Under the pieces are notes generated by a model that was not told the DNA's origin, ran no database searches, and saw only the letters and a list, made by a program, of their open reading frames with translations. A stretch of DNA of 64,000 nt from Panopea generosa (Eukaryota; Mollusca; Bivalvia; Adapedonta; Hiatellidae): assembly GCA_029582155.1 (NCBI GenBank), contig CM055901.1, forward strand, positions 22,779,186 through 22,843,185, in the 5' to 3' direction. The translations under genes and the position numbers were made by a program. Of the stretch, positions 24,540 to 57,015 are shown piece by piece (position 1 is the stretch's first letter; each line of letters opens with the position of its first letter).

Positions 24540-25690
24540 AATGGGTACTCCATCTTTTAACAGATGTCCAGAAAACTCTTAGACTTACTGTCCAAAATCT
24601 ATAAACAGTGGATTAAAAACGGCCAACAAAGGTCAAACATACTCTAAGTGCTAAAAAATATTATATTCAATATCCTTAGATTTCAATGGCTCTGTCGTTC
24701 AAATACCAACTCCAAGTGGTAAAACTGATAAAGGCAACTTTTACAAGAACTGCGTTTCGAAAAATGTAAAAAACATTTATGAGAACAAGAGACCAGCAAG
24801 GGGTTTACGAGGTATTTGTCTGTTACATGACAACGCGGCCGCCCACAAAAGCAACACTGTCCAGACCTTTTTGAAAGAAGAAAATAATGTTGAGCTTCCC
24901 CATTCACTACATTTTCCAGATTTGAGACCATGTGGCTCCTCTCTCTTCCCACGATTGAAAAAAATATTGACTGGATGGCGGTATACCAACAAAAGTGCCC
25001 TTGGCTCCACCCAAGACTGAAAAAAATAATGTTGGCTGGATGGCAGTATACCAACAAAAGTGCCCTTGGCTCCACCCAAGACTAAAAAAAAAATGTTGGC
25101 TGGATGGCGGTATACCAACAAAAGTGCCCTTGGCTCCACCCAAGACTGAAAAAAAATGTTGGCTGGATGGCGGTATACCACCAAAAGTGCCCTTGGCTCC
25201 ACCCAAGACTGAAAAATAATGTTGGTTGGATGGCGGTATACCACCAAAAGTGCCCTTGGCTCCACCCAAGACTAAAAAAAAATGTTGGCTGGATGGCGGT
25301 ATACCAACAAAAGTGCCCTTGGCTCCACCCAAGACTGTAAAAAAATGTTGGCTGGATGGCGGTATACCACCAAAAGTGCCCTTGGCTCCAACCAAGACTA
25401 AAAAAAATGTTGGCTAAATGGCAGTATACCAACAAAAGTGCCCTTGGCTCCACCCAAGACTAAAAAAAAATGTTAATTGGATGGCAGTATACCACCAAAA
25501 GTGCCCTTGGCTCCCAAGACTAAAACAAAATGTTGGCTGGATGGCGGTATACCACCAAAAGTGTCCTTGGCTCGGCCATCTTCCAGTATCTGCAGAGTAT
25601 ACTATTGAAGACTATGAAAACATTTAGAGATTGGATTTTGAGATTGGATTTTGAGATTGTAAAAGTGTGTTACAGCTCGGGGAGACTTCT
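24540..25690 (+). pseudogene. Mariner-family transposase remnant, split by its own tandem repeat
   Basis: Three pieces in different frames make up a Tc1/mariner transposase of mariner type. At 24542 the frame reads WVLHLLTDVQKTLRL. At 24820-25010 it reads LLHDNAAAHKSNTVQTFLKE, PHSLHFPDLRPCG, LFPRLKKILTGWRYTNKSALGS. From 25572 it resumes with SAIFQYLQS and later KCVTARGDFFDRLK, the usual C-terminus. The second catalytic Asp (HDN) is present. The third, normally just after the PDL.PC segment, is Gly, and frames are broken, so the copy is dead. A 63-bp minisatellite made from the LKK..SALGS segment interrupts it. Confidence 0.88.
24950..25575 (+). repeat. 63-bp minisatellite derived from mariner transposase, about 10 copies
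   Basis: Units start near 24971, 25036, 25100, 25163, 25226, 25289, 25352, 25414, 25477 and 25536. Each contains GGATGGCGGTATACCAAC, GTGCCCTTGGCTCCACCC and an A-run. The first unit is collinear with the transposase reading GWRYTNKSALGS, and the last runs into SAIFQYLQS. Repeats therefore begin and end inside one gene. Confidence 0.93.
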
Positions 25691-26840: not shown

Positions 26841-26846
26841 TCTTAA

Positions 26847-29772
26847 AGGGAATTTATCAGGATTTTTCATGAATTTAAAATTGGCTTTAAACATTTGTTT
26901 TCCAATATATCATGCCTATATATACTCACTGACCCCGTATTGCCATAAGACTATATATACTCACTGACCCCGTATTGCCATAATACTTTATATACTCACG
27001 GACCCCATATTGCCATAAGACTATATATACTCACGGACCCCATATTGCCATAAGACTATATATACTCACGGACCCCGTATTGCCATAAGACTATATATAC
27101 TCACGGACCCCGTATTGCCATAAGACTTTATATACTCACTGACTCCGTATTGCCATAAGACTATATATACTCACGGACCCCGTATTGCCATAAGACTATA
27201 TATACTCACTGACCCCGTATTGCCATAAGACTATATATACTCACGGACCCCGTATTGCCATAAGACTTTATATACTCACTGACTCCGTATTGCCATAAGA
27301 CTATATATACTCACGGACCCCGTATTGCCATAAGACTATATATACTCACTGACCCCGTATTGCCATAAGACTATATATACTCACGGACCCCGTATTGCCA
27401 TAAGACTTTATATACTCACTGACTCCGTATTGCCATAAGACTATATATACTCACGGACCCCGTATTGCCATAAGACTATATATACTCACTGACCCCGTAT
27501 TGCCATAAGACTATATATACTCACGGACCCCGTATTGCCATAAGACTATATATACTCTTGGACCCCGTATTGCCATAAGACTATATATACTCACGGAGCC
27601 CGTATTGCCATAAGACTATATATACTCACTGACCCCGTATTGCCATAAGACTATATATACTCACGGAGCCCGTATTGCCATAAGACTATATATACTCACG
27701 GACCCAGTATTGCCATAAGACTATATATACTCACGGACCTCGTATTGCCAAAAGACTATATATACTCACGGACCCCGTATTGCCATAAGACTATATATAC
27801 TCACGGACCCCGTATTGCCATAAGACTATATATACTCACGGACCCCGTATTGCCATAAGACTATATATACTCACTGACCCCGTATTGCCATAAGACTATA
27901 TATACTCACGGACCCCGTATTGCCATAAGACTATATATACTCACTGACCCCGTATTGCCATAAGACTATATATACTCACGGACCCCGTATTGCCATAAGA
28001 CTATATATACTCACTGACCCCGTATTGCCATAAGACTATATATACTCACGGACCCCGTATTGCCATAAGACTATATATACTCACGGACCCCGTATTGTCA
28101 TAAGACTATATATACTCACTGACCCCGTATTGCCATAAGACTATATATACTCACTGATCCCTTATTACCATAAGACTATATATACTCACTGACCCCGTAT
28201 TGCCATAAGACTATATATATACTCTTGGACCCCGTATTGCCATAAGAATATATATACTCACGGACCCCGTATTGCCATAAGACTTTATATACTCACGGAG
28301 CCCGTATTGCCATAAGACTATATATACTCACTCACCCCGTATTGCCATAAGACTTTATATACTCACTGACCCCAAATTGCCATAGACTATATATACTCAC
28401 TGACCCCATATTGCCATAAGACTATATATACTCACGGACCCCGTATTGCCATAAGACTATATATACTCACTGATCCCTTATTGCCATAAGACTATATATA
28501 CTCACTGACCCCGTATTGCCATAAGACTATATATACTCACGGACCCCGTATTTCCATAAGACTATATATACTCACTGAACCAGTATTGCCATAAGACTAT
28601 ATATACTCACTGACCCCGTATTGCCATAAGAATATATATACTCACGGACCCCGTATTGCCATAAGACTATATATACTCACTGACCCAGTATTGCCATAAG
28701 ACTATATATACTCACGGACTCTGTATTGCCATAAGACTATATATACTCACGGACCCAGTGTTGCCGGAAGACTATATATACTCACGGACCCCGTATTGCC
28801 ATAAGACTATATATACTCATGGACCCCTTATTGCCATAAAACTATATATACTCACTGACCCCGTATTGCCATAAGACTATATATACTCACTGACCCTGTA
28901 TTGCCATAAGACTTTATATACTCACTGACCCCGTATCGCCATAAGACTATATATACTCACGGACCCCGAATTGCCATAAGACTATATATACTCACTGACC
29001 CCGTATTGCCATAAGACTATATATACTCACTGACCCTGTATTGCCATAAGACTATATATACTCACTGACCCCGTATCGCCATAAGACTATATATACTCAG
29101 GGACCCCGAATTGCCATAAGACTATATATACTCACTGACCCCGTATTGCCATAAGACTTTATATACTCATGGACCCCGTTTTTCCATAAGACTATATATA
29201 CTCGACGACCCCTTATTGCCATAAGACTTTATATACTCATGGACCCCGTTTTTCCATAAGACTATATATACTCGACGACCCCTTATTGCCATAAGACTAT
29301 ATATACTCACGGACCCCGTATTGCCATAAAAAATATGTATTTAAACATGCCAAATTAATATATGGAAAATGGATTTCCTAACTTTGGCTACACGCGTAGG
29401 TTAGACTAAAATAGATTTCCCAATTAAAATATATTTTGTGATGTATTAAATGGGTCTCGTGATTTCATTTGATTTTAATTTAATCTGTTTTACAGGTTTA
29501 CACATAATAAACAATGCTGCATCTTAGAAAAAGTCCGAATGACGACACAAAGGTCGTCGAATAGTATTCAAGTGCTTGCTACTTATAGAATGAAGATTTC
29601 GTTTGAAGCGTACCAATTTAATTTAAGTATCAATTTTGTCACGTTTTGGTGGGTTTGACATACTAAACCATTAAGATTGTCTTTATATATGATAATCAGG
29701 TGCGTTTTATCCATTTTTAAAATAATTATATTTTTGATACATTGAGAGCGTTTTTTTCCTGGTATACTCCCT
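26847..29772. mobile_element. TTAA-flanked element E, expanded copy containing a satellite
   Basis: TTAA at 26843-26846 and 29773-29776 flank inverted ends AGGGAATTTATCAGGA and AGGGAGTATACCAGGA (13 of 16 match). Non-satellite parts match, in the same order, the minus strand of 56559-57015: TATCAGGATTTTTCA, CGCGTAGGTTAGACTAAAAT, TGGTGGGTTTGACATA and TTTTTAAAATAATTATATTT. Only about 520 bp is element; the rest is 35-bp satellite. No transposase is encoded. TTAA target choice suggests piggyBac-type mobilisation. Confidence 0.82.
26928..29335. repeat. 35-bp satellite array, about 69 monomers, with higher-order repeats
   Basis: The monomer is ACTATATATACTCACGGACC plus CCGTATTGCCATAAG. The main variants are CACGGACC and CACTGACC. 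A 140-bp block of four monomers, marked by ACTTTATATACTCACTGACT, starts near 27124, 27264 and 27404. Near the right end a 70-bp dimer (CATGGACCCCGTTTTTCC then CTCGACGACCCC) is duplicated at 29154-29293. Confidence 0.97.
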
Positions 29773-29859
29773 TTAAATGTATGTAAGTTGCATAACTGTT
29801 TGGTGAAATATCAATAGTATACAATATTAATAAGGCAATAGTATAGGCCAATAATTTAT

Positions 29860-33650: not shown

Positions 33651-50753
<17,103 letters not shown>

Positions 50754-56550: not shown

Positions 56551-56558
56551 ACCTTTAA

Positions 56559-57015
56559 AGGGTGTATATCAGGGTGAAACGCTAAATGTCTAAAAAAATA
56601 TAATTATTTTTAAAATGGATAAAAAGCATCCCATTTTCATCAATCAATGAAATTCTAATGAAAGTCCAATGGTTTTGATATGTCAAATCCACCAAAAACT
56701 TAACAAAATTGATATTTAAACTGGAGCGGTATCCCCATTCTAAAAATAGACAGCACATATGAAAACCTTTAAATCCAAATGAAATCGCACTCATTTTAAA
56801 ACGTCACAAATATGTTACAATTTTAAGTGGAAAATCTATTTTAGTCTAACCTAGGCGCGTAACCCAATTTAGAAACTCTCTTTTCAATATATTATTTTGA
56901 CATTTAAATATATATCCTTTTGGCAACATGGGTTCAGTGCGTCTATATCTAGGCATGGTCGGTTTATTGGAAAGAAAATGTTTTAGTCAATTCTCAAATT
57001 TTGAAAAATCCTGAT
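56559..57015 (-). mobile_element. TTAA-flanked element E, unexpanded copy
   Basis: On the minus strand it is collinear with 26847-29772 but carries one monomer-like stretch (TAGATATAGACGCACTGAAC, CCATGTTGCCAAAAGGATAT) where the other copy has the 35-bp satellite. The left end AGGGTGTATATCAGGG follows TTAA (56555-56558). The right end decays after TATCAGGATTTTTCA and meets the next element. Confidence 0.8.

Follow-up and report, generated by a model that had tools for sequence, protein, structure and literature searches.

The tandem array described here lies inside a small mobile element, and the question it raises is whether the array grew from a segment that the element already carried or was acquired from elsewhere. 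An earlier note on the window (the whole 64,000-nucleotide stretch of Panopea generosa DNA analyzed here) had proposed the former, calling the array a satellite.

Structure of the array-bearing element

The element at positions 26847 to 29772 of the window is bounded on both sides by TTAA (26843 to 26846 and 29773 to 29776), and its inverted ends are intact. On the plus strand, it consists of a left arm (26847 to 26915) opening with the inverted end AGGGAATTTATCAGGA, a 35-bp unit (CTATATATACTCACKGACCCCGTATTGCCATAAGA) repeated 69 times head to tail at 26916 to 29329, and a right arm (29330 to 29772) with the terminus ...CCTGGTATACTCCCT. The arms were delimited from the sequence and a family alignment, and the array by TRF and unit analysis. 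Unit starts are 35 bp apart in 66 of 68 cases, with one spacing of 34 bp and one of 37 bp; the mean pairwise identity of the 69 units is 92.8%, and TRF reports 68.9 copies with 92% matches. As assembled, the array is 2.4 kb long and contains higher-order repeats with periods of 70 and 140 bp. In this copy and its relatives alike, AT-rich blocks flank the 35-bp segment (the seed): TATATATA lies to its left and ATATMTATT to its right. Tandem arrays are often mis-sized in assemblies, and the length or even the existence of this one could be an assembly error; however, its many private unit variants and ordered higher-order pattern are unlike simple stutter, and we consider such an error highly unlikely.

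A second, diverged member of the same family is located on the minus strand at 56559 to 57015. As the earlier note had described, it contains a single seed segment (56916 to 56952), which differs from the 30-base seed core by seven mismatches. The two had been taken for copies of one TTAA element. They do belong to one family, but the second copy matches the array copy at only 77.9% of shared columns and is incomplete: TTAA is present only on its right (56555 to 56558), while its left side reads CATATAGATCTATCAGG, with neither TTAA nor the AGGG end. Intact flanks and ends are therefore a property of the array copy. A full-length match of the flanks was not obtained either. When unit-to-unit matches were excluded, the two copies aligned in three pieces of 75 to 77% identity, and the alignment coordinates place the second copy ~95 bp short in the right arm. 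Judged by sequence similarity, it is a true yet distant relative of the array element.

The MITE family and its target site

Relatives were sought in the 1.47-Gb assembly, which comprises 39 contigs. The family left end (27 bases, up to three mismatches) gave 6,814 matches, and its reversed control gave none. A right-arm search produced 7,469 first-look candidates, 40 of which were scored; of the 39 non-self matches among the 40 listed, 35 aligned along the full 436 bases of the arm, at 83 to 87% identity. The family of miniature inverted-repeat elements (MITEs) has thousands of copies in the genome.

For the family alignment, we used 42 rows, including both window copies; from a collection of 48 arm pairs, three same-place duplicates and five partial copies were left out, other partial copies were retained, and some rows have common flanks, so that the rows are not all independent. 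The resulting consensus is 557 bp long including both TTAAs. The left TTAA is retained in 24 rows, the right one in 34, and both in 20, and conservation drops directly outside TTAA. The collection of 48 arm pairs was restricted to arms separated by at most 60 bases and is hence blind to arrays, which are covered by the two-seed test described below. Copies with common flanks form groups at C15:141200, 27477288, 27852075, 27903857, and 27964769; at C12:24972313 and 25037209; and on C28/C3 (L030, L033, and L034). Their common flanks indicate that these groups were multiplied by duplication of larger segments and not by transposition.

An empty site in locus L088 reads GTGTTAAAAATGG; it contains exactly one TTAA and matches the two flanks of the L074 copy when these are joined. 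A second empty site, at 36563 to 36737 of the window, has TTAA with one A fewer beside it, and those in L006 and L069 read TTGA. The single TTAA at empty sites identifies TTAA as the duplicated target of the family and backs the target-site status of the TTAAs that flank the array copy. The consensus ends, AGGGAATTTATCAGGA and AGGGAGTATATCAGGA, are alike at 14 of 16 positions by eye and carry the terminal AGGRR motif. MITEs with a TTAA target and AGGRR ends, termed T2-MITEs, are regarded as non-autonomous Kolobok elements (PMC6004289). Since the ends (AGGGA...) fit this rule, the element is consistent with a T2/Kolobok-type MITE, an assignment made by its TTAA and AGGRR ends.

Single seeds across the genome and a single array

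When the whole assembly was searched with the 30-base seed core (up to three mismatches), 1,285 matches were obtained, 62 inside the array and 1,223 elsewhere. A 30-base head-to-tail junction pattern, used at the same tolerance and blind to dimers with more than three changes or in another register, gave 64 matches. All 64 fall in the array at 26916 to 29329, which has 68 junctions; at up to three mismatches, no junction was found outside it in the 1.47-Gb assembly. Reversed-pattern controls yielded no matches in the seed, junction, left-end, and unit-variant searches, which excludes chance as the source of the matches. At up to nine mismatches, at least one seed was detected in 52 of 56 other loci fetched (some places twice) and none in L023, L027, L038, and L075; two seeds within 110 bp were found in none of the 56. 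The other copies examined contain one unit or its remains at the same internal place that holds the 69 units in the array copy, as the earlier note had anticipated.

The array units point to the same root. The 35-bp type-B unit, which opens the array as unit 1 and accounts for 14 of the 69, is present letter for letter in the family consensus. Type A, with 16 of 69 units the commonest, departs from type B by a single T-to-G change at unit position 15. In a search whose pattern accepted G or T equally, the G variant occurred in 0 of 36 off-locus matches among 100 listed of 111. The presence of type B in the consensus and the absence of the G variant from these off-locus matches root the array in the element and set the direction from one unit to many. 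The claim that the array originated inside the element, and in this direction, is thus supported by the single units elsewhere, the confinement of all 64 junction matches to one locus, and the identity of the consensus segment to type B. A genome search, as the earlier note had proposed, gave 1,223 seeds elsewhere and found no second array.

An opposite course of events, in which the MITE captured an existing tandem repeat and most copies later shrank to one unit, is how miDNA4 of Xenopus tropicalis has been explained (PMC12628747). Here, no junction was found elsewhere in the 1.47-Gb assembly despite 1,223 well-kept seeds, and the family consensus holds one unit. Capture followed by contraction is strongly disfavored, to the point of being scarcely probable, and we retain growth from a single seed.

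The name satellite did not hold, since the junction occurs at one locus only (64 of 64 matches), whereas satellite DNA forms abundant arrays at many loci. A minisatellite is a single-locus array of 0.5 to 30 kb with units of some tens of bases. At 69 × 35 bp and 2.4 kb, the array is a single-locus minisatellite and not a genome-wide satellite. The suggestion that the element could carry satellite seeds to new loci stands insofar as MITE copies contain the 35-bp segment, but the searches turned up no other locus with an array. The array copy itself, having both ends and both TTAAs intact, could be mobile and represent an early stage of a dispersing satellite. However, a second array was not found in the assembly, and among the 42 aligned rows the array copy has no relative closer than 89.6% identity, hence no close offspring there; we give this possibility very little credence.

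Probable in-place growth of the array

The order of unit types reveals duplicated blocks: ACAB occurs three times consecutively, and runs of ABABABA and GHGH are present. Twelve lags were examined, eight of which were tested by shuffling. At lag 2, the mean difference was 2.19 versus 2.24 for the lowest of 1,000 shuffles; at lag 4, it was 2.15 versus 2.22. Relative to types A/B, units of the left half carry 0.53 changes on average and those of the right half 1.63 (p 5e-5 by permutation), the halves having been defined once the series had been seen; this distribution fits recent turnover in the left half. Together, block duplications and polar variation fit unequal exchange or slippage in place. 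An array acquired by gene conversion, or through insertion of an extrachromosomal circle into the seed, would likewise give one locus with intact arms; yet the assembly yielded no donor array, and the 70- and 140-bp block duplications point to growth in place. We therefore regard arrival by either route as unlikely and favor stepwise growth.

Microhomology was rejected as a proven trigger. An exact run of at least 6 bases at the 35-bp offset was present in only 3 of 41 other copies, and control offsets of 33 and 37 gave 4 of 41 and 3 of 41, respectively; the microhomology that a start by slippage would predict is weak.

We consider it very probable that a MITE insertion was followed by in-place growth of one segment to 69 units in one copy. 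A non-autonomous T2/Kolobok-type MITE would have inserted at the TTAA site at 26843, carrying, like its relatives, one 35-bp internal segment between AT-rich blocks. A single first duplication, by replication slippage or unequal sister-chromatid exchange, probably occurred in this one copy, and further rounds of unequal exchange or slippage involving one, two, or four units at a time would have extended it to 69 units. The expansion most likely took place after the insertion, a timing that we infer. We claim no function for the array, which is probably neutral.

Other tandem arrays in the window

Tandem repeats occupy 23.7% of the window, compared to 8.7% of 172 kb around other MITE copies (some places twice). 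Besides short ones, ~11 different arrays with units of 20 to 168 bp are distributed over positions 1 to 64000. The idea that all of them are transposon-derived was rejected: among five further arrays, each searched by one edge, only the 63-bp unit occurred in dispersed copies among the matches listed. With the 50-bp array edge, no locus but the one in the window was returned. The dispersed matches listed for the 54-, 31-, and 48-bp arrays, where scoring covered 17 of 17, 40 of 304, and 40 of 454 candidates, respectively, end at or outside the array edge. The start of the 54-bp array (21668) and the end of the 48-bp array (50462) are each only a few bases away from the end of a match to a dispersed repeat whose listed copies are without the unit. 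The left flank and unit-like parts of the 168-bp array (43790 to 45268) recur in L085 (1616 to 2539), which makes a dispersed element its possible carrier.

Elsewhere in the genome, a 30-bp minisatellite adjoins two MITE copies, at L038 (1322 to 3446) and L027 (C8:38718909-38723548). Both copies are left-truncated, each being cut where the seed ends on its right side (TTTAAA). We rejected them as a second expansion of the seed, as the 30-bp unit is by eye unrelated to the 35-bp seed.

A mariner segment with repeated expansions

The 63-bp array (24958 to 25573, ~10 units) is located 1.3 kb upstream of the MITE array, so that both kinds of array occur within this distance in the window. It continues a broken mariner transposase, whose identity rests on phmmer (SETMAR and Mos1, E about 2e-5), with the Pfam match to DDE_3 (E 0.0098) being below the cut-off. 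A query made from the left edge of the array gave 84 listed matches; 40 of 41 candidates were scored and six places fetched. Because this query contains the unit, the sample favors arrays, and the contrast between MITE and mariner is to be read as a lead and not as a rate.

Arrays of the mariner segment comprise 10 units in the window, at least 55 on C19 (L089), where the array reaches the edge of the fetched piece, and 3 on C12 (L090; TRF 3.7). On C5 (L094), a 29-bp sub-unit is repeated 10.6 times at the same place in the segment. The copies on C9, C4, and C3 have two units each, with a mutual identity of 61 to 75%. The nearest neighbor of a unit lies in its own locus for 9 of 10 units in the window, 54 of 55 on C19, and 3 of 3 on C12, indicating that these arrays were expanded or homogenized separately; for all six units on C9, C4, and C3, it lies in another locus. 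Thus, an old dimer seems to have preceded repeated expansion of the mariner segment, unlike the single MITE expansion found, and may ease expansion.

Among ~1,200 well-kept copies, the MITE segment, which inherited no dimer, expanded a single time; the mariner segment has an old diverged dimer and underwent separate expansions at four places. On this basis, we put forward a speculative reading, which we ourselves consider doubtful: the first duplication, and not later growth, would limit array birth inside transposons, and T2/Kolobok MITEs would be recurrent, rare satellite nurseries in distant hosts. With the MITE and mariner arrays in one genome, expansion from an existing dimer can be compared with expansion that had none to start from.

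Comparison with known systems

Tandem arrays derived from transposable elements have been described in several hosts. In Xenopus, an inner segment of a TTAA/AGGRR MITE was amplified in Xmix and Xstir (PMC6004289). Xmix shares with our element the TTAA target, the terminal AGGRR, and the amplified internal segment (PMC6004289), and 12 of the 16 bases of the end AGGGAATTTATCAGGA agree, by eye, with the XKol A5 end of X. tropicalis, AGGGGAACTATCATGA. Xstir is described as a large repeat family, and an Xstir-like repeat would be carried to many loci with its MITE, whereas one array was found here, at one locus among more than 1,000 seed-bearing copies. In miDNA4, as in our family, a MITE holds either a single monomer or an array, flanked by AT-rich sequence, in that case short direct repeats (PMC12628747); it is, however, filed as Tc1/mariner, with capture of an existing repeat proposed and a variable copy number, in contrast to the one array found here.

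In mammals, too, arrays have grown from part of a dispersed element: ~7,276 such minisatellites are given for human, and mouse Ms6-hm is derived from a MaLR LTR (PMC9659126). Their hosts are retroelements (Alu, LTR) and not a MITE of the cut-and-paste type, but the same review also gives further cases of tandem repeats in MITEs. In bivalves, the pearl and DTC84 MITEs hold internal tandem repeats (PMC5139131), although their arrays are short (up to six units) and form a module of the element, as opposed to a private expansion in one copy.

With Xmix/Xstir, miDNA4, human minisatellites, and bivalve MITEs on record, this mode of array birth is already known, and the accepted picture is unchanged. 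What the present locus adds is an unusually clean before-and-after case of the birth of a tandem array, in which the presence of the ancestral segment at more than 1,000 places, together with the one expansion found, makes the rate of the first step countable.
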